The notes under the pieces were generated by a model. The model did not search any database and was not told where the DNA came from. It was given only the letters and a program-made list of their open reading frames with translations. Of a stretch of 9,293 nucleotides of DNA, positions 2 to 9,293 are shown piece after piece (positions within the stretch are counted from its first letter, which is position 1; the number at the start of each line of letters is the position of its first letter). Source of the DNA: Sphingobium sp. (GTDB taxonomy: Bacteria > Pseudomonadota > Alphaproteobacteria > Sphingomonadales > Sphingomonadaceae); assembly GCA_030148625.1 (NCBI GenBank), contig JASBTC010000057.1, forward strand, positions 1 to 9,293, read 5' to 3'. The translations under genes were made by a program, and so were the position numbers.

Positions 2-805
2 TTCGCCGACTATGTGAACCGGCTTTTTGTCATCAACGCCGGCCATAATCTGGGCCTGTCGCGCGAGGATTCGATCGAATGGCGGCGGCTGATCGATGAG
101 ACCATGCACCGCGAAAAGGGGCAGGTCGGCACCTCGTCGCCGCGCAACCAGGCCGCCGGCATGGCGCTGTTCGAGCAGCTGCACGCCTATGTGCAGAAGA
201 TCCGCGACAATCCCGAACTCGCCGGCGGCCATTGCCGGAAATATCTCGAGGCCGAGGTCGATGGCCGCCGCCTGGACAATCAGGACATCGTCAGCATCAT
301 CATCATCTTCCTGACCGTCGGTTCGGGCACGACCCCCAATGTCTGCGCGGGCGCCGTCTATCATCTGGCGCAGCACCCGGATCAGCAGGATGCGGTGCTC
401 GCGGATCTGTCGCTGACGCCCAAGGCATTCTTCGAAGCGGCGCGATTCGACCAGCCGACCAACATATTGTGCCGACGCGCGGTGAAGGACTTCACGGTCG
501 GCGGAAAGCAGATCAGGGCCGGCCAGAATCTGCTGATGGTCTATGCATCGGCCAATCGCGACGAAGCGGAGTTCGAGCGCGCCGACGTCTTCGACATCCA
601 TCGCAGCTATCCGCGCGACCTGACCTACGGGATCGGCGGGCATAAATGCCTGGGCATGCACCTCGCCACCATGGCGGGCACGATCGCGCTCGACGAGTTC
701 TTCAAGGTCGCCGGCCGTTACCGCGTCGACACCGATCGCTGTACGCGCGCCTACAGCGAATTCCTCTCTGGCTTCGATCATGTCCCCGTCGAGCTCGGCG
801 CCTAG
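2..805 (+). CDS. Cytochrome P450, C-terminal part (5' end cut by window edge)
   Basis: This is a haem-thiolate monooxygenase, probably hydroxylating a hydrophobic catabolic substrate with electrons from a ferredoxin. The frame is open to the left edge, so 267 codons of a typical ~400 are present; the GTG at 14 is internal, not a start. The I-helix lies at about 308-340 and reads VGSGTT. The K-helix ExxR is EAAR (434-445). The haem loop YGIGGHKCLG (626-655) supplies the Cys thiolate ligand at 647-649 with the usual His two residues before it. One oddity is that the acid normally preceding the I-helix Thr is Gly (codon 326-328). The next gene starts 34 bp downstream, consistent with one operon. 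By position it resembles cyp125 in the mycobacterial igr operon, but I cannot assign a CYP family. Confident as a P450; substrate unknown. Confidence 0.95.
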   Translation, partial: FADYVNRLFVINAGHNLGLSREDSIEWRRLIDETMHREKGQVGTSSPRNQAAGMALFEQLHAYVQKIRDNPELAGGHCRKYLEAEVDGRRLDNQDIVSIIIIFLTVGSGTTPNVCAGAVYHLAQHPDQQDAVLADLSLTPKAFFEAARFDQPTNILCRRAVKDFTVGGKQIRAGQNLLMVYASANRDEAEFERADVFDIHRSYPRDLTYGIGGHKCLGMHLATMAGTIALDEFFKVAGRYRVDTDRCTRAYSEFLSGFDHVPVELGA

Positions 806-810
806 CGCCG
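796..810 (+). other. Small perfect hairpin over the P450 stop codon
   Basis: CGGCGC-CTA-GCGCCG forms a 6-bp stem with a 3-nt loop that includes part of the TAG stop. No T-run follows and the dioxygenase gene begins 29 bp later, so it is unlikely to be a full terminator. It may be chance or a weak mRNA element. Confidence 0.25.
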
Positions 811-839
811 GCAACTCTCAGCAATTCAGGAGCGTTACC

Positions 840-1811
840 ATGTCAATTCGAAGCCTCGGCTATGTCGGGTTCGGCGCGCCGGATCCGGCGGTCTGGCTGG
901 ACTATGCCACCAATATCCTGGGGCTGATGCCCGCGCGCGCTTGTGCGGGCGAGGATTGGGGTATTCCCGCGATCCCGGGCTCCGGCCCGAAAAGCGCGGG
1001 CAGCGGCATCGCGGAGGATGGCAGCATCTATCTGAAGATGGACGAGTGGCAGTGGCGTATTGCTGTGCACCCGGACGAGACCAATCGCGGGATCCGGTAT
1101 ATCGGCCTGGAGGTCGAGGATCACGCCGATCTGGAGGAGTTTGTCGATCGGCTGAGGGACGCGGGCTTCCCCGCCGAAATGGGCACGACCGCACAGGCGC
1201 GGCAGCGCGCGGTGACCGCGATCGCCCATACGACCGATCCGTGCGGCAATGCGATCGAGCTGTTCGTCGGCCCGACGATCGACCGGAAATTCCAGTCGCC
1301 TCTGGGCATGGAGTTCCTCGCCGGCCATCTGGGGCTGGGCCATATCAACCTGATCACCTCCGACAAGCTCGAGGCCGCGCAGCATTTCTACACGCGCATC
1401 CTGGGCTTCGGCCTGACCGACTATATCCGGTTCGGTGGTGGCAATTCGGCCAATTTCTATGGCTGCAATCCCCGGCACCATTCGATCGGCCTGCTCAAGG
1501 TCGGCAACGTCGTCGGCATCCACCACATGATGCTGGAAGTGACGCAGGTCGACATGGTGCTGCAATGCCTTCAGCGCGTTCAGGACGCGGGCATCCACAT
1601 CACCTCCACGATCGGCCGGCACGTCAATGACGACATGCTGTCCTTCTACATGCGCTCCCCCTTTGGCTTCGAGGTCGAGATCGGCTTCGGCGGGCGGATC
1701 ATCGACGAGAGCTGGACCGCGAACGAATTCGTCGAGGGCGATATCTGGGGTCATCGCGGCCTCGATCCGGCGACGATCGAGAAGAACCTCGCTTCGGCGC
1801 CGAGAGGATAG
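840..1811 (+). CDS. Type I extradiol (catechol 2,3-cleaving) dioxygenase, HsaC/BphC-like
   Basis: A 323-aa two-domain VOC enzyme that opens a catecholic ring next to the diol using Fe(II) and O2. The N-terminal VOC half (about residues 1-145) is the structural repeat; the C-terminal half (about 160-285) is catalytic. Metal ligands are visible as H168 (GLGHINL), H228 or H229 (GIHHMMLEV) and E280 (FEVEIGFGG). Family active-site residues are also present: the RHHS motif (H213/H214), H261 in GRHVND, and Y270 in SFY. The opening MSIRSLGY, the CNPRHHS block and a WGH near the C-terminus resemble HsaC of steroid degradation (from memory of that protein). I chose the ATG at 840 because AGGAG (828-832) lies 7 nt upstream and the family start is conserved; the in-frame ATG at 780 would overlap the P450. 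A biphenyl- or diterpenoid-type catechol is an alternative substrate. Confidence 0.93.
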   Translation: MSIRSLGYVGFGAPDPAVWLDYATNILGLMPARACAGEDWGIPAIPGSGPKSAGSGIAEDGSIYLKMDEWQWRIAVHPDETNRGIRYIGLEVEDHADLEEFVDRLRDAGFPAEMGTTAQARQRAVTAIAHTTDPCGNAIELFVGPTIDRKFQSPLGMEFLAGHLGLGHINLITSDKLEAAQHFYTRILGFGLTDYIRFGGGNSANFYGCNPRHHSIGLLKVGNVVGIHHMMLEVTQVDMVLQCLQRVQDAGIHITSTIGRHVNDDMLSFYMRSPFGFEVEIGFGGRIIDESWTANEFVEGDIWGHRGLDPATIEKNLASAPRG

Positions 1812-1815
1812 GGCC

Positions 1816-2226
1816 ATGGTCGCGATTCTCACCGCTCCGCAGCTCGATATCGGGCTGGTCTCCGCCGACATCGCCGGGCCGACCCGCTTCTACCATGACG
1901 TGCTGGGCTTCCCGCTGGCGGGCAGCGTCGACATTCCGGGCGTCGGACAGGTCACGCGCTTCCAGGTCGGCAACAGCATCCTGCGTGTGCTCGTGCCGAT
2001 CGCGGCGCCCGCCCGCCCGCCCGCCGGGCGTGGTTTCTCCGGCACGATCGGCATCCGCTATCTCGCGCTCAAGATCGCCAATCTCGCCGAGACCGTCGAT
2101 CGCGTCGCGGCGGCGGGCTTCGCCGTCGCCGTGCCGATCCGGACATTGCGCCCCGGCGTACAGGTCGCGCTGGTCGAGGATGCCGATGGCAACACCGTCG
2201 AGCTGATGGAGGACAATGCGTCGTGA
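1816..2226 (+). CDS. Small VOC (glyoxalase/bleomycin-resistance fold) protein
   Basis: A 136-aa single-domain member of the vicinal oxygen chelate superfamily. The two beta-alpha-beta-beta-beta modules are recognisable: the first around residues 10-60 (LDIGLVSADIAGPTRFY, then VLGFPL) and the second around 75-135 (YLALKIANLAETVDRVAAAGF, then DADGNTVELME). The C-terminal Glu metal ligand is present, but the His usual in the first strand appears to be replaced (LDIGL). It may therefore be an isomerase- or epimerase-like enzyme rather than a dioxygenase, or a non-metal VOC protein. The start at 1816 has AGAGGA (1803-1808) 7 nt upstream and lies 4 bp after the dioxygenase stop. Its TGA overlaps the GTG start of the next gene, so translation is probably coupled. 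Its exact reaction cannot be told from sequence. Confidence 0.88.
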   Translation: MVAILTAPQLDIGLVSADIAGPTRFYHDVLGFPLAGSVDIPGVGQVTRFQVGNSILRVLVPIAAPARPPAGRGFSGTIGIRYLALKIANLAETVDRVAAAGFAVAVPIRTLRPGVQVALVEDADGNTVELMEDNAS

Positions 2227-3413
2227 ACTTTTCATTTTCCGATGAGGAGATGGATTTCCTGAAGCATTTCCAGGATTTCCTCGATCGCGAGAAACAGCGG
2301 CCCGACGCCGCGATCGTCTTCGCCCCGCAGCGGGAGACCGATTCCTGGCTGGTCGATTCTCCCGAACGGCGCGGCTTCATGAAGCGGCTGGCCGAGGCGG
2401 GCTATATCGGCATGTCCTGGGCGCGCGACTATGGCGGGCGCGAGATGCCGGGCATCTACGATTATCTGCTCAACGAAGAGCTTTCGAGCCAGGGCGCGCC
2501 GATCATCGGCAAGGGCGTCGGCTGTATCGGCAAGACCATCATCGCCCATGGTTCGGACCGGCTGAAACGGGAATTCCTGCCCCGGATCCTGGCGGCCGAC
2601 ATCGAATTCGCGCTGGGATATTCGGAACCGGGCGCGGGGTCCGACCTCGCGTCGCTCAAGCTGCGCGCCGAGCGACGGGGCGACGCCTGGGTGCTGAACG
2701 GCCAGAAGATGTGGACCACATCCGCTCATTTCGCGGACTGGTACTGGGTCGCCGCGCGCACCGATCCGGACGCGGCCAAGCATCAGGGGATCAGCGTCTT
2801 CCTGGTGCCGATGGATCATCCCGGCCTCACCATCACCGAAATCACGACGATGGGCGATCACCGCACCAACCAGGTGTTTTTCGACGATGTCGAGGTGCCC
2901 GGCGACTATCTGGTGGGGCAGGAGAATGCCGGCTGGCGCTACGTCTGCGAAGCGCTCGATTATGAGCGGTTCGCGCTCTACACGGTCGGGCCGCTGCTGC
3001 TGAAATTCCAGTCGCTGGTCGAGCTGCTGAAATTGACCAGGCGCGACGGCGCGCCACTGGCCGCCGATCCGGTCGTCCGCGCGCGCGTCGCCGAACTCGC
3101 CTGCGAGGTCGAAACCGCGAAGATGCTGCAACGGCGCGTGATCGCAAAGGCGATCAAGGACGAAGTGCCGAGCGTCGAAGCCGCGATGTACAAATTCTAC
3201 AGCACCCAGCTCGGCCGCCGCATCGCCAACTATGCAATCGACTGTCTCGGGCCACTGGGCCTGCTGCGAACCGAGGCGCCGCACGCGCCCTTCGGCGGCA
3301 AATGGGAGATGTCGGACCGGGCGACGGTGGTGGACACGATCGGCGGCGGATCGTCCGAAGTGCAGAAGAATATCGTTGCCCGGCGTGGGCTTGGCCTGAT
3401 GGTCGGAGCATAG
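2223..3413 (+). CDS. Acyl-CoA dehydrogenase, canonical subunit (FadE28-like position)
   Basis: A 396-aa FAD-dependent dehydrogenase introducing a 2,3 double bond into an acyl-CoA. The N-terminal helical domain covers about residues 1-128. The flavin/substrate signature is GYSEPGAGSD (132-141), followed by NGQKMWTTSA (159-168). The beta domain runs to about 235 and the C-terminal helical domain ends with GGGSSEVQKNIVARRGLGL (374-392). The MCAD-type catalytic Glu before GTS is Gly here (GGGSS). E248 in LDYERF sits where isovaleryl- and long-chain-type dehydrogenases carry their base, so it is the likely catalytic residue. The GTG start has GGAGGA (2208-2213) 9 nt upstream and overlaps the previous TGA. 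A second, degenerate ACAD gene starts 2 bp after this one, the arrangement of heterotetrameric steroid ACADs (FadE28/FadE29 type). The substrate is inferred, not shown. Confidence 0.95.
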   Translation: MNFSFSDEEMDFLKHFQDFLDREKQRPDAAIVFAPQRETDSWLVDSPERRGFMKRLAEAGYIGMSWARDYGGREMPGIYDYLLNEELSSQGAPIIGKGVGCIGKTIIAHGSDRLKREFLPRILAADIEFALGYSEPGAGSDLASLKLRAERRGDAWVLNGQKMWTTSAHFADWYWVAARTDPDAAKHQGISVFLVPMDHPGLTITEITTMGDHRTNQVFFDDVEVPGDYLVGQENAGWRYVCEALDYERFALYTVGPLLLKFQSLVELLKLTRRDGAPLAADPVVRARVAELACEVETAKMLQRRVIAKAIKDEVPSVEAAMYKFYSTQLGRRIANYAIDCLGPLGLLRTEAPHAPFGGKWEMSDRATVVDTIGGGSSEVQKNIVARRGLGLMVGA

Positions 3414-3415
3414 AC

Positions 3416-4504
3416 ATGGATCTCGACCTCAACGAAGAACAGCAGCTGCTGCGCGACACCGTCCGCCGGATCTGCGAGACGCTGTTCGACACGCAAAAGG
3501 TGCGCGCGCTCGAGAGCGATGCGGACAAGCTCAACCGCGATTTCTGGGATGCGCTTGGCGCCAATGGCCTGTGTGCGCTGCGCATCGACGAGGCCCATGG
3601 CGGTGCCGGCATGGGCGCGCTCGATCTTGCCTTGGTTTTCGAGGAATTCGGCCGGGCGCTGGCCTCGTCGCCTTTCCTCTCGAGCTGTGTGCTCTCGGCG
3701 AAGATCCTGTCGTCGCTCGGTTCCGATGCGGTGAAGGACCATTGGCTGCCCCGGATCGCCGGCGGCGAGGCAGTGGTCATCCCCGCCTGGCAGGAAGACG
3801 ACCTGGCCGGGGAAGGGCAGGGGACGGTGATCGATGCCGCGCGCAGCGTCGTCAACGGCGAGAAATTGCTCGTGCCCTTCGCCAGCGTCGCGGACCTGTT
3901 CCTGGTTCACGGAACCGGCGGCTGGGCGCTGGTGCCCGCCGATGCCAAGGGCGTCTCGATCGCCGCTCAGCCCAATTATGCGTCGCAGGCGCTGTTCGCG
4001 GTCCGCTTCGACGATGTGGCGATCGATCGCGCGCAGATCCTGGCCGACCCGGAGCCCCTGGGCGTCAGTGCGGAGGCGTTCGGCGACGTGCTGATCGCGG
4101 TCGCGGCCGAAGCGGTCGGGGCGTCGGATCGGCTGCTGGCGCTGACCGCCGACTATGCCAATCAGCGCAATCAGTTCGGCCGGCCGATCGCCGCTTTCCA
4201 GGCGGTGTCGCACCCGCTGGCCGATTGCGCGACCGAGCTGGAGGGCGTCCGCCATCTCGTCTACCAGGCCGCCTGGGCCAGCGACGGGCAGATGCCCTGT
4301 CGCCATCTCGCACAGATGGCCAAGCTCCAGGCGACGTCGCTGTTCCGGCGCCTCGCCACCGTCAGCGTGCAGGTGCATGGCGGCATCGGCTATTCGACCG
4401 AGGGCGATCCGCAGCTTTTCTACCGCCGCTCGAAATTCCACGAACTCATGTACGGCACCGCCGCCGATCTGAAGGCGCACATCGCCGATCATGTCTTCGC
4501 ATGA
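3416..4504 (+). CDS. Acyl-CoA dehydrogenase-like subunit, divergent (FadE29-like position)
   Basis: A 362-aa acyl-CoA dehydrogenase fold protein, shorter than the usual ~380-400. Family features include an N-terminal NEEQQLLRDTVRRI helix, EAHGGAGMG (residues 59-67), the NQFGRPI segment (C-terminal domain, FAD-contacting Arg-Gln-Phe-Gly region), and VHGGIGYSTEGDPQLFYRR near the end. The usual YTEPxAGSD signature is replaced by an unrelated stretch (PAWQEDDLAGEG), so one half of the flavin/substrate site is degenerate. In alpha2beta2 steroid ACADs the two subunits share FAD sites and one subunit lost residues in this way, so I infer a complex with the gene just upstream. The ATG at 3416 has GGAG (3405-3408) 7 nt before it; the longer in-frame extension from 3302 would run through the preceding gene. 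The stop TGA overlaps the next ATG. Confidence 0.93.
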   Translation: MDLDLNEEQQLLRDTVRRICETLFDTQKVRALESDADKLNRDFWDALGANGLCALRIDEAHGGAGMGALDLALVFEEFGRALASSPFLSSCVLSAKILSSLGSDAVKDHWLPRIAGGEAVVIPAWQEDDLAGEGQGTVIDAARSVVNGEKLLVPFASVADLFLVHGTGGWALVPADAKGVSIAAQPNYASQALFAVRFDDVAIDRAQILADPEPLGVSAEAFGDVLIAVAAEAVGASDRLLALTADYANQRNQFGRPIAAFQAVSHPLADCATELEGVRHLVYQAAWASDGQMPCRHLAQMAKLQATSLFRRLATVSVQVHGGIGYSTEGDPQLFYRRSKFHELMYGTAADLKAHIADHVFA

Positions 4505-5022
4505 CCGCGCCCGATGCATTGGACGATCGCGTCCTCCGCCTGATCGGCACGCCCCAATATGTGACCGACGCGGGCATCGCGGCGAACCACATCAACGTCC
4601 ATGCGATGTGCGCGGCGGTCGAGAACGGCAATCCGGCGCATTGGAGCGAGCCTGTCGCGATCGAACTGCTCGGCGCCCCCTGGTGCCCGGCGACGATGCT
4701 CGCCGCCTGGGGCCGGCCCGACTTGTGGCAGCCGGGGCAGGGCGAACCGCTCAAGGCGCTGCAGGCGCATTTCGATCTCAAGGCGCTGCTCGGCTATTCG
4801 GCGTCGATCGCGGTCTCCAACACCATAACATTCTATGCGCCCGTCCGGATCGGCGACCGGCTGAAGACGCAGCAGCTGCTGCGCAGCGTCGGCGATCTCG
4901 AACGGACCAGGCTCGGCCTGGGGCGGTTCTGGACGATCGACATGCAATATCTCGATGCGGAATCGAACCTCATGGGCGTCGAACGCTACGAGTTCTTCGG
5001 CTTCGAGCGGGGGGAGTCATGA
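4501..5022 (+). CDS. MaoC-like N-terminal (FAS1-like hot-dog) dehydratase subunit, ChsH2-like
   Basis: A 173-aa single hot-dog domain protein of the MaoC_dehydrat_N / FAS1-like type. The pattern includes AVENGNPAHW near residues 39-48, GAPWCPATMLAAWGRP in the middle, and FYAPVRIGDRLKTQ, typical of the second half of this fold. Members usually form the non-catalytic half of an enoyl-CoA hydratase, pairing with a catalytic MaoC subunit; the next gene encodes one. The mycobacterial counterpart ChsH2 is about 310 aa because it also carries a C-terminal DUF35 domain; that domain is absent here, as is any Ltp2 aldolase gene in the window. The ATG overlaps the TGA of the dehydrogenase gene (ATGA) and has no good Shine-Dalgarno, implying translational coupling. 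Confidence 0.87.
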   Translation: MTAPDALDDRVLRLIGTPQYVTDAGIAANHINVHAMCAAVENGNPAHWSEPVAIELLGAPWCPATMLAAWGRPDLWQPGQGEPLKALQAHFDLKALLGYSASIAVSNTITFYAPVRIGDRLKTQQLLRSVGDLERTRLGLGRFWTIDMQYLDAESNLMGVERYEFFGFERGES

Positions 5023-5498
5023 CACAGCGCCTGATCGGCGACGTCGCGCCCGGCACCACCATCCCCGCGCTCGCATTCGACGTCACCGCGACGCGGCTGA
5101 TCGCCGGCGCGCTGGCGAGCCGCGACTAGTCGCCGCTCCATCATGATGGCCGCTATGTCGCCGACATCGTCGGACAGCGGGATATCTTCGCCAACACCCA
5201 ATTCCAGGCGGCCTTGTTCGAGCGTTTCCTGAACGACTGGTCCGGCCCGTCCGGCCGGCTCGCGCGCATGACGTTCAAAATGGTCTCGTCGATCTTCGCC
5301 GGCGACGCCGTCACGATCACGGGCACGGTCGATCAGGTCCTCGCCGACGGCCCATGCGGCGCGGCCGTGGCGGTGACGATGCAAATGTCGGTCGGCTCGC
5401 TCGTCGCGACGTCCTGCGACGCGCTTTATGCCTTGCCGCCGTTCGCCGGCGACAATCCCTGGGATCGGCGCGGCGCGCAATGGCTTCGGCCGGATTGA
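5019..5498 (+). pseudogene. MaoC-like enoyl-CoA hydratase, catalytic subunit (ChsH1-like), broken by an in-frame TAG
   Basis: The reading frame would encode a 159-residue R-hydratase-type hot-dog protein but holds TAG at codon 37 (5127-5129). Before it stand ALASRD; after it, in the same frame, SPLHHDGRYVAD, so together they form the hydratase motif ASRD-x-SPLHHD with the stop exactly at the x position, which is normally an aromatic residue. TAG is one base from TAC, TAT (Tyr) and TGG (Trp). The remaining 122 codons stay open and family-like to TGA at 5496-5498, so the lesion is a single change, either recent or a sequencing error. The ATG at 5019 overlaps the previous TGA and has GGGGGAG (5010-5016) ahead of it. 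A 36-residue product would lack the catalytic His. The intact protein would complete the hydratase with the 4501-5022 product. Confidence 0.88.
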
Positions 5499-5519: not shown

Positions 5520-5912
5520 TCAGCGCGCCGCCATCGCCTCATGTTCGGCCCGGGCGGCGGCACGAAAGAAAGAAGCCGATATCAGCCACAGCGTCGTGAA
5601 GAGGCCGCTGAACAGCAGGATCCTGGACCCGCCGTCCGGCAGGCTCGCGGTCGACGGGTCGGTCGCAATGAGCAGGCCGAGCAGTATTTGCATGATCGCG
5701 ACGCCGAGCATCGTCCGCGCCATGCCGGCGGGCCGAAACCAGGCGGAAAACCCGCCAACGCCCGCGGCCATGATCAGCATGAAAAAGCCGATGCCATTGC
5801 CGTCGTCGCGAACCACTATGGTCCACAGCGTCAGGATCGATGTCAGGACTGCGGCGGCAACGCCGGCCCGATAGCGCCGATTTCCCTTCGCTTGTTCGTT
5901 TGACCCAGTCAT
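5520..5912 (-). CDS. Unnamed four-helix inner-membrane protein
   Basis: A 130-aa hydrophobic protein with predicted membrane helices at about residues 17-34, 39-58, 66-84 and 97-115, a charged N-terminus (NEQAKGNRRYR) and a charged tail (FFRAAARAEHEAMAAR). The segment AWFRPAGMARTM joins helices 2 and 3. It reminds me of small uncharacterised membrane proteins common in sphingomonads, but I cannot name a family or function. The start at 5912 has a good Shine-Dalgarno (GAGGTGA) about 6 nt upstream. It is convergent with the broken hydratase gene (21 bp between stops). It could be read with the DoxX/bufA1 genes upstream on the same strand, though a 277-bp gap with a hairpin makes that uncertain. 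Confidence 0.8.
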   Translation of the reverse strand: MTGSNEQAKGNRRYRAGVAAAVLTSILTLWTIVVRDDGNGIGFFMLIMAAGVGGFSAWFRPAGMARTMLGVAIMQILLGLLIATDPSTASLPDGGSRILLFSGLFTTLWLISASFFRAAARAEHEAMAAR

Positions 5913-6189: not shown

Positions 6190-6648
6190 CTATCGCCCTC
6201 CCGTGGCGGAGATCCACGGGAACAGGTGATCGAACGCCCAGCCGCCGCCGCCGCGGACCATCAATGGCAGCAGGATCGCCGCCCAGCTGAGATGCGTTGG
6301 CCAGGCATCGGGATAGACGAATATCTCGATCGTCAGGGTCATCATGAAGAGAGCCAGCGCGGAGAGGCGCGTGGCCAGCCCGAGGACCAGCAGGATTGGG
6401 AAGAGATGCTCGGACCAGGTCGCCGCGACCGCGGCGATTTCGGACGGGATCAGTGGCAACGCATATTCGGTGCGGAACAACTCGTAGGTGCTGTCGGTGA
6501 TGTGCAGCACACCGTCGACTTTGGTGCGGCCGGACATGAAGAACACTGCCGCGATGCCCAGTCGCGCGACCAGCAGCAGGAATGCGTCGGGTACCAGCGT
6601 GGATGCGCGACGGACGGTGCACTTGTACAGCGCGACGATCGGGATCAT
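6190..6648 (-). CDS. DoxX-family membrane protein of the bufferin locus
   Basis: A 152-aa integral membrane protein of the DoxX family. Predicted helices lie at about residues 21-40, 68-88, 92-112 and 117-133. The family's first-helix signature is seen as [14 protein letters not shown] (33-46, with the conserved Gly and Lys). [24 protein letters not shown] stretch is typical of the second half (residues 78-100). DoxX-like proteins recur in bufferin gene clusters, where a quinone- or redox-linked role at the inner membrane is suspected but not established. The start at 6648 has a weak GGAG-like site, and the gene follows bufA1 by 54 bp on the same strand, so it is probably the second gene of a bufA1-doxX operon under the SigF-type promoter at 7089-7115. 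The GC hairpin between them may lower its expression relative to bufA1. Confidence 0.9.
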
Positions 6649-6702: not shown

Positions 6703-6981
6703 TCAGGCCTTGGGAGTCAGCGAGCCATTGCCCTTGGGCGTCTTGATGCCCGTGCAGGTGCCGGCCTTGACCAGCTTCCAGGCATTGCCCTGGTAGTTGA
6801 CCTTGGAGGTTCCGGCACAACTGGTGCCCGCACCCGCCTTGCAGTCGTTCTTGCCGGCGAGACTGACGCCGTAGCATTTTTCCATCATGGGCTTGGTCTG
6901 GGCCGAGGCGGAGGTCGCAAGTGCGGTTCCGGCAACCGCGATCGCCAGGCTGGCGGCGAGAGTGGCGTGAGTCGAACGCAT
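6703..6981 (-). CDS. bufA1: DUF2282 bufferin precursor (BufA1 family), periplasmic metallophore
   Basis: A 92-aa exported peptide of the DUF2282/BufA1 family. These are ribosomally made precursors whose cysteines are modified by a DUF692 iron oxidase to give copper-binding bufferins (known from Caulobacter). A Sec signal spans residues 1-27 with an ATSASA-Q cleavage site. The mature part holds four Cys: C36 and C47 in the hallmark [15 protein letters not shown]55 in GTSCAGTS, and C76 in [19 protein letters not shown] is also family-typical. The ATG at 6981 is preceded by AAGGAA (6989-6994) and begins the signal peptide; a start at 7080 would add 33 non-signal residues and overlap the promoter. 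The usual BufB1/BufC1 partners are not next to it; only doxX follows. It is controlled by the SigF-type promoter about 110 bp upstream. Confidence 0.93.
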
Positions 6982-7010
6982 GATCTTATTCCTTGATATC
7001 GAAGCCTCGG

Positions 7011-7046
7011 CGCGCGGCCTCGCCACAAGAGGGGCAAGGCCGCGCG
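7011..7046 (-). promoter_or_regulatory. Stem-loop in the bufA1 5' leader
   Basis: CGCGCGGCCT (7011-7020) pairs perfectly with AGGCCGCGCG (7037-7046). After one mismatch, GCC (7022-7024) pairs with GGC (7033-7035), leaving an 8-nt loop. It lies within the predicted bufA1 transcript, about 17 nt upstream of the Shine-Dalgarno. No U-tract follows, so a stabilising or regulatory leader structure is more likely than a terminator. Confidence 0.55.
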
Positions 7047-7088
7047 ATGACCCGGCGGGGGAGGCTGGATGCCGGATCACGTTGCCAG

Positions 7089-7115
7089 TTCGGCGCCGGC
7101 GGTCCGACGGTTACA
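7089..7115 (-). promoter_or_regulatory. SigF-type promoter for bufA1
   Basis: On the minus strand the -35 TGTAACC (7115-7109) is followed by exactly 16 nt and then the -10 CGAA (7092-7089). The same hexamer, spacer and tetramer occur before sigF and bufA2. As I recall, this matches the motif reported for Caulobacter SigF. It gives a leader of roughly 100 nt before the bufA1 ATG. Confidence 0.85.
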
Positions 7116-7157
7116 AAACAGGCCACGGAAAAACATGCGGCGGATCGCGCGCGTTAC

Positions 7158-7184
7158 TGTAACCTTCCACGCAGTTCGGGCGAA
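7158..7184 (+). promoter_or_regulatory. SigF-type autoregulatory promoter for sigF-nrsF
   Basis: The -35 TGTAACC (7158-7164), 16-nt spacer and -10 CGAA (7181-7184) lie just before the sigma gene. The leader would be only about 15 nt, including the Shine-Dalgarno AGGGAG (7194-7199). It is divergent from the bufA1 promoter, with 42 bp between the two -35 elements. Confidence 0.85.
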
Positions 7185-7204
7185 CCTCCTTTCAGGGAGC
7201 GCGG

Positions 7205-7738
7205 ATGCGAGCGAGCGAGGAAGAATTGCGCGGATTGATGATTGGCGGGTTGGATGGCAATGCCGCCGACCACGCCGCCTTGTTGCGCCTGCTCGTCCCG
7301 CTGCTGCGCGCCTTTTGCCAGCGGCGCTGCAGGGAGGACGATGTCGAGGATCTGGTCCAGGAAACACTGATCGCAGTGCACACGCGGCGCGGTACTTATG
7401 ATCGCGACCGGCCTTTTACCGCCTGGCTGTTTTCGATCGCGCGCTACAAGATGATCGATCATTTCCGGCGCAATCGCCGCTACCAGCAGATCGAGGGGTT
7501 CGAAGACATATTGATCGCCGAAGGATTCGAGGACGCATCGATCGCGCGATTGGATGTTGACGGGCTGCTGGAGGAATTGCCGGGGAAACAGGCGCGCATC
7601 ATCCGCGCGACACGGATCGAGGGGCTGTCGGTCGCCGAAGCGGCAGACGCGGATGGAATCAGCCTTTCGGACGCGAAGGTCTCGGTCCATCGCGGGCTGA
7701 AATCGCTGATGACCAGGATCCAGGGAGGCCGGCGATGA
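7205..7738 (+). CDS. sigF: ECF sigma factor, SigF-like
   Basis: A 177-aa extracytoplasmic-function RNA polymerase sigma factor, which directs transcription of the surrounding metal-stress genes. Region 2 (about residues 24-92) shows DDVEDLVQETLIAVH and DRPFTAWLFSIARYKMIDHFRR, the core-binding and -10-recognition segments. Region 4 (about 119-172) carries the helix-turn-helix (EGLSVAEAADADGISLSDAKVSVHRGL) that reads the -35. There is no sigma region 1 or 3, as expected for ECF factors. The start at 7205 has AGGGAG 5 nt upstream. Its stop overlaps the ATG of the DUF1109 anti-sigma gene, the arrangement of Caulobacter sigF-nrsF. A matching promoter lies immediately upstream, pointing to autoregulation. 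The SigF assignment rests on the partner and promoter motif. Confidence 0.95.
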   Translation: MRASEEELRGLMIGGLDGNAADHAALLRLLVPLLRAFCQRRCREDDVEDLVQETLIAVHTRRGTYDRDRPFTAWLFSIARYKMIDHFRRNRRYQQIEGFEDILIAEGFEDASIARLDVDGLLEELPGKQARIIRATRIEGLSVAEAADADGISLSDAKVSVHRGLKSLMTRIQGGRR

Positions 7739-8376
7739 ATACCGACGACCTCATCAATTCGCTTTCCGCCGATGTCGCGCCGGTGCGGCGCGGCGCGGTC
7801 GGGCGGCGGATCGTCCTCGGCATATTTGCCGGTGCGCTGGTCTCGCTTGCCTATGTCGTGCTCAATATGGGCGTGCGGCCCGATTTCGGTGTGGCGATGC
7901 GCGGTTTCCCGTTCTGGATGAAATGGGCGTACACGATCTCGCTGGCGGTGGGTGCGATAGCGATGACGGCGCAGTTGGCGCGGCCCGATACGAGGCGGCT
8001 GCGCGGGCTGTGGCTGATGGCGATTCCGGTGCTGCTGCTCGCCGGTGTGGGCGCGACCGAGCTTTTCAGCACGCCGCAGACCGAATGGCTGGCAATGTGG
8101 CTCGGGCATAGCTGGACGCAGTGCCCATGGCGCGTCCTGGGGCTGGCGATGCCGATCTTCGTCGGATTGCTCTGGTCGTTCCGGCGGCTGGCGCCCACCC
8201 GGTTGCGGGCGGCCGGCGCGGCGGCGGGGCTGGCGGCGGGGGCATTCGCCGCGACGGTCTATTGCCTGCATTGCCCCGAGGTGTCTGCGATCTTCGTGCT
8301 GACCTGGTATTCGCTCGGTATCCTGCTGGCGACTTTGGTGGGGGCGTTGCTCGGACCGCGGTTGCTGCGGTGGTAG
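7735..8376 (+). CDS. nrsF: NrsF-type (DUF1109) membrane anti-sigma factor
   Basis: A 213-aa inner-membrane protein expected to hold SigF inactive until metal stress. Six helices are predicted at about residues 25-43, 62-81, 90-108, 131-149, 158-176 and 184-206. The short cytosolic N-terminus (NTDDLINSLSADVAPVRRG) is typical of DUF1109 and likely contacts the sigma factor. Cysteines C130 (WTQCPW) and C177/C180 (YCLHCPE) lie at the ends of helices 4 to 6. From memory, NrsF of Caulobacter uses two conserved cysteines near these positions for its response to chromium and cadmium, so they are the likely sensor. The ATG overlaps the sigF TGA, ensuring coupled synthesis. Confidence 0.92.
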   Translation: MNTDDLINSLSADVAPVRRGAVGRRIVLGIFAGALVSLAYVVLNMGVRPDFGVAMRGFPFWMKWAYTISLAVGAIAMTAQLARPDTRRLRGLWLMAIPVLLLAGVGATELFSTPQTEWLAMWLGHSWTQCPWRVLGLAMPIFVGLLWSFRRLAPTRLRAAGAAAGLAAGAFAATVYCLHCPEVSAIFVLTWYSLGILLATLVGALLGPRLLRW

Positions 8377-8444
8377 AGGGCGCGATGCGCATCCGCTGTG
8401 TGGCATAGGCTCTTCGTTCAAACCGGCGCTTGGGGCGATCTGCG

Positions 8445-8464
8445 GTTCGATGGAATCATCGAAC
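8445..8464 (+). other. Perfect 8-bp hairpin after nrsF
   Basis: GTTCGATG (8445-8452) and CATCGAAC (8457-8464) enclose a GAAT loop. It lies 69 bp past the nrsF stop and 44 bp ahead of the bufA2 -35. No T-run follows; it could be a weak transcription end for sigF-nrsF or a regulator site. The rest of 8377-8507 shows nothing I recognise. Confidence 0.35.
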
Positions 8465-8506
8465 GACCCGAGCGCGACCGTTTCGTCCGCTTAATTTTCC
8501 CGGGAG

Positions 8507-8533
8507 TGTAACCGCACGCCTCCTCTCTGCGAA
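8507..8533 (+). promoter_or_regulatory. SigF-type promoter for bufA2
   Basis: The -35 TGTAACC (8507-8513), exactly 16 nt, then the -10 CGAA (8530-8533). It is the third copy of the motif, placed 41 nt before the bufA2 ATG. AGGAG at 8563-8567 provides a strong ribosome site. Confidence 0.85.
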
Positions 8534-8574
8534 AGGATGATGCCAACCCGGCAACACTTTTCAGGAGACTCTCA

Positions 8575-8841
8575 ATGACCATCCTTCGCACCGGCATGAG
8601 CTTCGCCGCCACCGCCGCCGTCATCGCCATCGCCGCCGCGGCGCCGACCCAGGCGGCTGCCTCCAAATCGGCTGGCGCCAAGGTCCATTGCTACGGCGTC
8701 AACGCTTGCAAGGGCACGTCGGACTGCAAGACTGCCAAGAACGACTGCAAGGGCATGAATGACTGCAAGGGCACGGGTTTCAAGGAAATGTCGGTCAAGG
8801 CCTGCAAGAAGGCCGGCGGCAGCGTGACCGCACCGATGTGA
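8575..8841 (+). CDS. bufA2: Six-cysteine bufferin precursor (BufA2 family)
   Basis: An 88-aa exported, Lys/Cys-rich peptide, the likely substrate of the DUF692 oxidase encoded next. Residues 1-28 form a Sec signal ([19 protein letters not shown], then TQA-AAS). The mature part has six Cys (39, 45, 51, 58, 64, 77) in a quasi-repeat: [13 protein letters not shown], then [19 protein letters not shown]. Similar low-complexity peptides precede MNIO genes in the second class of bufferin clusters and are thought to bind copper or related metals in the periplasm after modification. The ATG at 8575 has AGGAG 7 nt upstream and a SigF-type promoter close by. It is unlike BufA1 in sequence and length of Cys spacing, so the locus makes two distinct peptides. 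Confidence 0.92.
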
Positions 8842-8846
8842 TCGTC

Positions 8847-8879
8847 TCCGGCCCGGTCGTCAGGCGCGGCTGGGCCGGG
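8847..8879 (+). other. GC-rich hairpin between bufA2 and bufB2
   Basis: CCGGCCC (8848-8854) pairs with GGGCCGG (8872-8878), extended by a wobble pair at each end, with a 15-nt loop. It starts 6 nt after the bufA2 stop and lacks a U-tract. As with the repeat after bufA1, it may protect the precursor mRNA 3' end and reduce expression of the enzyme gene. Confidence 0.5.
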
Positions 8880-8912
8880 CCCTCGCAAGCAAACCTCTCC
8901 GAAAGTTCACCG

Positions 8913-9293
8913 ATGATCGCACCTTTTCAGGGCCATGGCCTCGGCCTGCGCAAGCCGCATTATGCTGCGTTTCTCGAGCAGCGTGTCGCCGTCGATTTCG
9001 TCGAAATGATCTCGGAGAATTTCATGGTCGATGGTGGCCAGCCGCGCCGGATATTGCGCGACGTCCGCGCGCTTTATCCGGTTGCGCTGCACGGCGTGTC
9101 GATGTCGCTCGGTTCGGCCGACGGGCTCGATGGCGCCTATCTCGCGCGGCTGCGCGCGCTGGTGGACGAGATCGAGCCGCTGTTCGTCTCGGACCATCTG
9201 AGCTGGTCGCGGATCGAGGGGTTCAATTCGCACGACCTGCTCCCGCTGCCCTATACGGTCGAGGCGCTCGATCTGGTCTGCGCCAATATCGGC
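8913..9293 (+). CDS. bufB2: DUF692 multinuclear non-haem iron oxidase (MNIO), 5' part
   Basis: The first 127 codons of a DUF692/MbnB-like TIM-barrel enzyme, usually about 280 aa; the rest lies past the window end. MNIOs use two or three iron ions and O2 to modify Cys in RiPP precursors; BufB enzymes make the metal-binding groups of bufferins. Visible family features are GHGLGLRKPHY (residues 7-17), VDFVEMISENFM (27-38), the metal-site H60 in LHGVSMSLGS, SDHLSW (93-98, with D94 and H95), and HDLLPLPYT (107-115). The ATG at 8913 begins the conserved N-terminus but has only a weak ribosome site, in contrast to bufA2. It follows bufA2 by 71 bp, so the pair is one operon. A DUF2063 partner (BufC) is expected further downstream but is not in view. 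Confidence 0.95.
   Translation, partial: MIAPFQGHGLGLRKPHYAAFLEQRVAVDFVEMISENFMVDGGQPRRILRDVRALYPVALHGVSMSLGSADGLDGAYLARLRALVDEIEPLFVSDHLSWSRIEGFNSHDLLPLPYTVEALDLVCANIG

Follow-up and report, generated by a model that had tools for sequence, protein, structure and literature searches.

In Caulobacter crescentus, SigF-NrsF controls CC3254-3257 and CC2907-2905 (PMC3511200, PMC8224329), two operons that are separate, as an earlier note on the DNA studied here had stated. CC2907 was labelled DUF2282 in a 2012 table, and a 2025 survey mentions Buf2 in C. vibrioides (PMC12452194); a search of the Caulobacter control genome with NF050166 gave no match. The same survey describes areas of the MNIO network that correspond to precursor families, reports that sigma/NrsF genes are found in Buf1 clusters and absent from Buf2 clusters (section 14), and does not settle whether a single MNIO pair can act on several precursors (PMC12452194).

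In the window analysed here, the whole 9,293-nucleotide stretch of DNA from Sphingobium sp., the earlier note described a DUF2282 precursor with four Cys and DoxX to the left of a single sigma/anti-sigma pair, and a six-Cys BufA2 precursor followed by a DUF692 gene to its right (Table 1). Profile searches confirmed each of these assignments, among them the three that the note had fixed beforehand as tests of its own reading (6703-6981 in DUF2282, 8575-8841 in BufA2 and 8913 onwards in DUF692). The left precursor matched PF10048 DUF2282 at 83.2 bits (curated cut-off 22.4), and its mature region, which follows an apparent Sec signal peptide recognised by eye, holds four Cys. The adjoining doxX, which lies outside and to the left of the span covered by the note (6703..9293), matched PF07681 at 62.1 bits (cut-off 23.6) and NF050144 HvfX at 48 bits, under the 80-bit cut-off of that model. 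On the right, bufA2 scored 108.1 bits with NF050166 BufA2 (curated cut-off 60), with six Cys in its mature region, and bufB scored 146.7 bits with PF05114, covering profile positions 2-120 of 263. The best NCBIfam model for bufB was NF050167 BufB, at 161 bits on 127 residues, below the cut-off of 310 because the window carries just this part of the gene; the full-length MNIO of a relative (L001) reached 379.2 bits with the same model.

Between the two arms, sigF matched TIGR02937 at 77.3 bits (cut-off 42.9) as well as Sigma70_r2 and r4_2, and nrsF, located directly downstream of the ECF sigma gene and containing Cys at 130, 177 and 180, matched PF06532 NrsF at 250.5 bits. Since nrsF scored 160.5 bits over its full length against the equivalog NF042994, missing the cut-off of 300, we do not name it Caulobacter NrsF itself. 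An ORF past doxX (5520-5912) was excluded as part of the island, as it matched itself alone among 74 sources and no Pfam family. We infer bufC and the genome-wide enzyme count for the window from its relatives, and metallophore production is putative.

Table 1 Features of the sigma-F bufferin island in the window.
Feature	Position	Strand	Remarks
doxX	6190..6648	-	second in the left-hand (Buf1) operon; start 54 bp past bufA1
bufA1 (DUF2282 Buf1 bufferin precursor)	6703..6981	-	four Cys; N-terminus signal-peptide-like by eye
sigma-F promoter of bufA1-doxX	7089..7114	-	GTAACC-N16-CGAA, exact
sigma-F promoter of sigF-nrsF	7159..7184	+	GTAACC-N16-CGAA, exact
sigF, ECF sigma factor	7205..7738	+	PF04542 (Sigma70_r2), PF08281 (r4_2)
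nrsF, membrane anti-sigma factor (DUF1109/NrsF)	7735..8376	+	PF06532; 4-base overlap with sigF
sigma-F promoter of bufA2-bufB	8508..8533	+	GTAACC-N16-CGAA, exact
bufA2, Buf2-type bufferin precursor	8575..8841	+	six Cys, Lys after most
bufB, MNIO bufferin maturase, partial	8913..9293	+	N-terminal 127 residues; gene truncated by the window end

The promoter motif occurred in 3, 6 and 0 of 20,000 random sequences for the regions upstream of bufA1, sigF and bufA2, respectively, the sequences being generated from a first-order Markov model fitted to each region. In complete islands of relatives and the window, a bufA1-side promoter of the form GTAACN-N16-CGWA was present in 48/48 and the bufA2-side promoter likewise in 48/48, with the sigF-side promoter in 45/48. 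The -10 letters were uniform within the island in 40 of the 45 that have all three promoters (33 all CGAA, 7 all CGTA). Joint regulation of both bufferin classes by a single SigF-NrsF pair, in line with the coordinated production that the earlier note had suggested, is well supported by the three exact promoters and the conservation of the set in relatives.

A search for both precursors near NrsF, which the same note had proposed, recovered bufA1, sigF, nrsF and bufA2 in 48 of 74 NrsF sources, window included, demonstrating that the island is a conserved sphingomonad locus and no curiosity of one window. In the window, as in 47 relatives, bufA2 is preceded by sigF-nrsF, and the island departs here from the rule given in PMC12452194, which is a survey finding and no strict definition. 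On the left arm, doxX lies on the bufA1 side in all 48 complete islands, and an MNIO or DUF2063 gene was found in none of the 48. This arm lacks what a Buf1 cluster usually has, an MNIO and a DUF2063 gene of its own; a usual cluster part has been lost, with DUF2282 family identity kept. The left arm without a maturase, with a single pair for both precursors in 28 of 38 island genomes, is a stranger feature than those in the earlier note, from which it is absent. Since profile iteration from bufA1 and bufA2 lumped the two families together, they were split by Cys number and with new profiles. Because the seeds of these profiles were picked by Cys number, Cys conservation is quoted per island side: all four Cys are retained in 51 of 52 left-arm peptides.

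We consider it likely that the locus is a sigma-F bufferin island in which one Buf2-type BufB-BufC pair matures the Buf2 and Buf1 precursors, having taken over BufA1; judging from the genes, one enzyme pair probably finishes both copper-binding peptides. In a Caulobacter-like alternative, with one enzyme per precursor, a second MNIO elsewhere in the genome would mature BufA1. Genome-wide counts bear on this directly. The 48 complete islands yielded 39 loci and, after L043 was dropped, 38 genomes; outside these counts are the window, L002, L028, L037, L052, L057, L059 (in the same genome as L038), L062 and L065. The island MNIO is the sole MNIO in 28/38 genomes, within search sensitivity and assembly completeness, as a missing gene may be an assembly gap, and each of the 28 has a single DUF2063 partner, a single DUF2282 gene and a single BufA2 gene above cut-off. 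More than one MNIO occurs in 10/38. Three of these (G015, G023 and G026) have a second, Buf1-type MNIO adjoining an extra DUF2282 gene, as the alternative would have it; the extra gene of G015 contains a TAG inside its frame. A fourth genome has a diverged MNIO of ambiguous kind. In G001, G016, G018 and G032 the additional MNIO adjoins no DUF2282, coming after a ferritin-like protein in the first three. Matched in 3/38 genomes and contradicted in 28/38, within the limits of search and assemblies, maturation of BufA1 by a separate MNIO appears very improbable. When 147 genomes were drawn evenly from the order, with G001, G005 and G015 in common with the 38-genome set, both precursors were present in 22, with one MNIO in 10/22 and two or three in 12/22. 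Loci around order-level matches were picked by hand from coordinates, and L227 and L228 were left out of the analysis.

Phylogenetic analysis places the island MNIO and its partner on the Buf2 side. In the careful tree, comprising 80 of 160 MNIOs and barring the long-branched L131, L134, L142, L147 and L162, the BufA1-adjoining MNIOs, except L215 and L130, separate from the others at 100/100. The same split was obtained at 100/97 in the partner-protein tree (78 proteins), with L215 and L130 likewise set aside, and at SH-aLRT 87 in a quick tree of all 160 MNIOs; a joint tree held 52. Forcing the island MNIOs together with Buf1-type MNIOs gave p = 6.7e-6 in an AU test; the groups for this and the AU tests below were defined after viewing a first tree. 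An Asp beside the catalytic Asp is found in 76/86 BufA2-adjoining MNIOs vs 5/65 BufA1-adjoining ones. Both the Buf2-type clade and this Asp are seen in the relatives, the corresponding part of the window gene lying beyond 9293. A co-change of the enzyme Asp with a BufA1 Lys was considered following an idea in PMC13097082 (section 14). The expected match of this Asp with a Lys following the second BufA1 Cys was clear in raw counts (45/60 vs 5/63) but not significant on independent pairs (median p 0.25), and the co-change was not taken as proof.

Both maturase pairs are kept at L174 and in Asticcacaulis pASTEX01, and since the latter keeps both, the Buf1-side pair was probably lost from the island. 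Three other genomes carry nrsF-sigF-doxX-bufA1 divergent from MNIO-DUF2063, with one MNIO and two DUF2282 genes each and no BufA2 match in a precursor search covering DUF2282 and BufA2. These genomes nest among the islands and still have an MNIO of Buf2 type with its partner; the DUF2282 side carries a sigma-F promoter in 3/3, the maturase side in 2/3. Forcing them with the Buf1 type gave AU p values of 0.043 (MNIO alone) and 2.9e-5 (MNIO and partner). They provide a putative natural experiment for BufA1 as the substrate of a Buf2-type pair. They also bear on the proposal that BufA1 is an unmodified, plain cysteine peptide working with DoxX after maturase loss, BufA2 alone being matured, an option listed in section 21 of the survey for genomes that have more than one precursor but a single MNIO pair (PMC12452194) and consistent with doxX as the sole left-arm companion of bufA1. 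This is rather improbable given the near-complete retention of the four left-arm Cys, together with the upkeep of the Buf2-type MNIO, its partner and the sigma-F promoters where DUF2282 genes are the only precursor matches. The loci together make likely a staged swap, with takeover by the Buf2-type pair, both peptides from one sigma-F hub, and later loss of the Buf2 substrate in one sublineage, perhaps in L215 too. Forcing L215 to a Buf1-type place was not rejected with the MNIO alone (AU p 0.19) and gave p 0.037 with the partner added; L215 is possibly a second independent substrate swap.

Building on the observed gene content, promoters, conservation, enzyme counts of relatives, and enzyme and partner phylogeny, we propose a model for the signal, the metal, the order of events and the enzyme action on both peptides. 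Metal stress (copper in Caulobacter) would be sensed via NrsF, freeing SigF to transcribe bufA1-doxX, sigF-nrsF and bufA2-bufB-bufC as three units. The two precursors, bearing predicted signal peptides, would be modified before export by the Buf2-type pair of BufB MNIO and BufC/DUF2063, and would bind copper in the periplasm. The Buf1-side pair, formerly between bufA1 and doxX, would have been lost, the Buf2-type pair then taking BufA1. The shared control may instead be mere convenience, the peptides serving different metals or stresses and sharing an enzyme without further meaning. Caulobacter sigma-F responds to chromate and cadmium too (PMC3511200), but preliminary results give C. vibrioides Buf2 a function similar to that of Buf1 (PMC12452194, section 21), and we regard co-regulation alone as unlikely; it does not conflict with maturation of both peptides by one pair.

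The island is a conserved natural case bearing on the match between MNIO network and precursor families, on the distribution of sigma/NrsF genes, and on whether one pair serves several precursors. Such a shared pair, if true, would answer the open question of enzyme choosiness, and the loci offer ready enzyme-substrate sets for recognition tests, with one enzyme for two precursor families in the first, both enzymes retained in the second and Buf1 by itself in the third. As in the island, sigma-F/NrsF of Caulobacter runs two MNIO operons via GTAACC-N16-CGAA promoters, with copper inducing both; in the published accounts, however, these operons lie apart, each with its own MNIO (DUF692) and DUF2063, one alone being located by sigF. 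In Sinorhizobium meliloti, the ECF16 pair rpoE7-ecfR7 is divergent from a DUF692 and DUF2063 operon with a promoter of the same kind as the island's, but this is a single operon on one side, and the description in PMC6180224 that we draw on mentions no second bufferin arm. The Buf2 clusters L181-L185 share the bufA2-MNIO-DUF2063 order, but have neither sigF-nrsF nor a BufA1 arm within 4.2-7 kb. Asticcacaulis excentricus pASTEX01 resembles the island in combining divergent bufA1 and bufA2 units with sigF-nrsF at one locus, but represents a fuller version with its own MNIO and partner on each arm, one MNIO being of the Buf1 type and the other nearest the Buf2-type island enzymes.

Pfam and NCBIfam searches placed a doxX-to-MNIO gene set in the right third of the window, in agreement with the earlier note, which had read a DUF2282 precursor with DoxX to the left of a sigma/anti-sigma pair and, to its right, a BufA2 precursor and a DUF692 (MNIO) gene from 8913 onwards. 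The best NCBIfam model for the window MNIO was the bufferin maturase BufB, under its cut-off because the gene is cut by the window end and too short; a full-length relative at locus L001 exceeds that cut-off. In the window NrsF, cysteines occupy positions 130, 177 and 180. Further left, 2-5022 (+) encodes a cytochrome P450, two glyoxalase/dioxygenase-superfamily proteins and two acyl-CoA dehydrogenases, a probable catabolic cluster. An ORF starting near 5020 (+) has an in-frame TAG at 5127-5129, with the same frame open beyond; a Pfam search with its two pieces gave no match, and it is possibly a broken gene closing this cluster.

Genes and sigma-F promoters of the bufferin island in the window
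Feature	Position	Strand	Evidence
doxX	6190-6648	-	DoxX match in Pfam
bufA1	6703-6981	-	DUF2282 match in Pfam
sigma-F promoter before bufA1	7089-7114	-	exact GTAACC-N16-CGAA
sigma-F promoter before sigF	7159-7184	+	exact GTAACC-N16-CGAA
sigF	7205-7738	+	sigma-70 regions 2 and 4 in Pfam
nrsF	7735-8376	+	NrsF match in Pfam
sigma-F promoter before bufA2	8508-8533	+	exact GTAACC-N16-CGAA
bufA2	8575-8841	+	BufA2 in NCBIfam, 108 bits vs cut-off 60
MNIO maturase gene (bufB), first 127 residues	8913-9293	+	MNIO match in Pfam

An NrsF scan of a genome collection yielded 73 loci, or 74 sources with the window. The genes bufA1, sigF, nrsF and bufA2 stand in the window's order in 48/74 sources, with doxX on the left in all 48. 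The right arm includes an MNIO in 47 of these complete islands and a DUF2063 partner gene in 46, the missing genes (MNIO in L028; DUF2063 in L028 and the window) being explained by stretches that end early. Six Cys were present in 50/50 right-arm peptides found and four in 51/52 left-arm peptides, the sole exception being a Pseudomonas locus (L070) that ends early. The locus is real and conserved; judged by record titles, almost every host belongs to Sphingomonas, Sphingobium or Novosphingobium, and it also occurs on annotated plasmids of Sphingomonas paeninsulae and Novosphingobium sp. EMRT-2.

Sphingomonad SigF-NrsF pairs can have other neighbours: 20/73 NrsF loci (e.g. L013, L016-L018, L022, L026, L029, L030) had no bufferin gene nearby, some through contig ends. 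At L203, L204 and L205, a bufA2-MNIO-DUF2063 unit follows sigF and nrsF, and the available stretch lacks bufA1 (the L203 sigma match is 1.2 kb from nrsF), an order that departs, as the island does, from the printed statement of Buf2 clusters without sigma genes. Another alphaproteobacterial locus, L120 (also L227), has a divergent pair of bufA1 and a weak bufA2-like gene; its available stretch shows two sigma-F motifs and a single MNIO, and it is possibly an independent case of the arrangement.

The Caulobacter sigma-F promoter is published as GTAACC-N16-CGAA (PMC3511200), and the window holds no exact copy beyond the three tabulated. Random sequences generated with a first-order model of these upstream regions matched 3, 6 and 0 times per 20,000 tries (bufA1, sigF and bufA2). 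Scored in relatives as GTAACN-N16-CGWA, the promoter precedes bufA1 and bufA2 in 48/48 complete islands each and sigF in 45/48; the strict form occurred 6 times in 0.94 Mb lying >2.5 kb from nrsF. Among the 45 islands with all three promoters, the last four letters were identical within the island in 40 (33 all CGAA, 7 all CGTA) and mixed in 5, a raw count ignoring kinship, in which the 7 CGTA islands may be kin. This tendency to co-vary fits a single sigma factor reading all three promoters. A common SigF switch for the three units is strongly predicted, and the exact, conserved promoters uphold the coordinated control of both peptide classes that the earlier note had proposed. In Caulobacter, the SigF regulon is copper-induced, and growth in copper is poor when sigF is mutated (PMC8224329); two conserved Cys of Caulobacter NrsF matter for low SigF target levels (PMC3511200). 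In the island, SigF release would jointly turn on sigF-nrsF, the two precursor genes and the maturase pair that these would share.

No MNIO or DUF2063 gene was found on the left arm in 48/48 islands. Exactly one MNIO, DUF2063, DUF2282 and over-cut-off BufA2 gene was present in 28/38 searchable island genomes, their assembly completeness being unreported. A Buf1-type MNIO adjoins an extra DUF2282 gene in genomes G015 (with a TAG within the frame of that gene), G023 and G026; G023 has two islands, G010 an extra diverged MNIO (L201), G020 another divergent bufA1/bufA2 pair and the MNIO that goes with it, and G008 a second BufA2 cluster (L211). A further MNIO without adjoining DUF2282 occurs in G001, G016, G018 and G032, following a ferritin-like protein in the first three; G018 also shows a third MNIO match, which is partial. 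When 147 genomes were drawn evenly from the order (G001, G005 and G015 being common to both sets), BufA2 exceeded the cut-off in 26, 22 of them also with DUF2282; these 22 had a single MNIO in 10 cases and two or three in 12, again with completeness unreported. At L226, a 690-residue ferritin-like protein (PF12902; 1102-3174), whose 14 Cys include several within a Gly-rich segment, precedes an MNIO and DUF2063 pair; relatives lie upstream of MNIO in L208, L209 and L222, and the protein may be a large MNIO substrate.

In a quick tree of 160 MNIOs, those beside BufA1 separated from the rest (SH-aLRT 87), and a careful tree of 80 gave the same Buf1/Buf2 separation at 100/100, with two exceptions, L215 and L130, both on the Buf2 side. 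A 78-row partner-protein tree reproduced the split at 100/97, L215 and L130 set aside. The island MNIOs group on the Buf2 side, and placement with the Buf1 type was rejected (AU p 6.7e-6) in tests whose groups, here and below, were defined only after the first tree had been seen. The residue after the catalytic Asp, linked to substrate choice in PMC13097082 (section 14), was Asp in 76/86 MNIOs beside BufA2 vs 5/65 beside BufA1 (the window copy ends before it); the expected co-change of this Asp with a BufA1 Lys was not significant. From gene content and trees, we infer that one BufB-BufC pair would mature both BufA1 and BufA2 of the island.

Two related gene orders bear on this reading. In Type II, nrsF-sigF-doxX-bufA1 is divergent from bufA2-MNIO-DUF2063 (eight genomes examined, L166-L173, all with a single MNIO; also a Sphingobium sp. 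RAC03 plasmid). In Type III (L175-L177), the same left unit is divergent from MNIO-DUF2063 without bufA2; each genome has one MNIO, one DUF2063 and two DUF2282 genes, and a BufA2 model search gave no match. Type III MNIOs, like their partners, fall within Type II (ten-member MNIO clade, 100/99). AU tests of a Buf1-type origin gave p 0.043 from the MNIO and 2.9e-5 from MNIO and partner combined. Content and nesting together indicate a Buf2-type pair left with only Buf1 precursors among the families searched (DUF2282 and BufA2, with EGKCG and others outside the search). An alternative raised in print would leave some precursors unmodified (PMC12452194, section 21); against it stand the Type III genomes, which keep the pair with BufA1 as sole precursor among these families, and the retained cysteines of the precursors. 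A Buf2-type maturase appears to have taken over a Buf1 precursor. L215, with two bufA1 genes followed by MNIO and partner in a genome with one MNIO, one DUF2063 and no over-cut-off BufA2, is a possible second case, less well supported than Type III (Buf1-type origin, AU p 0.19 alone, 0.037 with partner). Extra stand-alone bufA1 genes at L224 (2557-2784) and L225 (2423-2695), in genomes without bufA2, each have a sigma-F promoter and, by eye, a lipobox-like N-terminus.

Bufferin precursors are described in PMC12452194 as carrying signal peptides, being modified by MNIO and partner and binding copper in the periplasm, and the idea of one MNIO pair with several substrates is already in print there. 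Words beginning 'sphingo' are absent from its main text. The literature searched (figures and supplements of PMC12452194 and most subscription journals outside scope) held no report of the cross-family island with a single sigma-F switch, or of Buf1-pair loss and BufA1-only genomes. Of more interest than a hub with two precursors is the apparent takeover of a Buf1 precursor by a Buf2-type maturase.

Both arms have their own maturase pair at L174 and on Asticcacaulis excentricus pASTEX01, where doxX-DUF2063-MNIO-bufA1 is divergent from bufA2-MNIO-DUF2063-sigF-nrsF; two NrsF-family genes stand in tandem after sigF on this plasmid (L230 7930-9106). The window (Type I) lacks the maturase pair that pASTEX01 carries between its bufA1 and doxX, and gene orders and trees suggest a succession from two maturase pairs to Types I-III. 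The window-type left arm likewise differs from Caulobacter, where each of two operons carries its own MNIO (DUF692) and DUF2063 genes (PMC3511200, Table 1).
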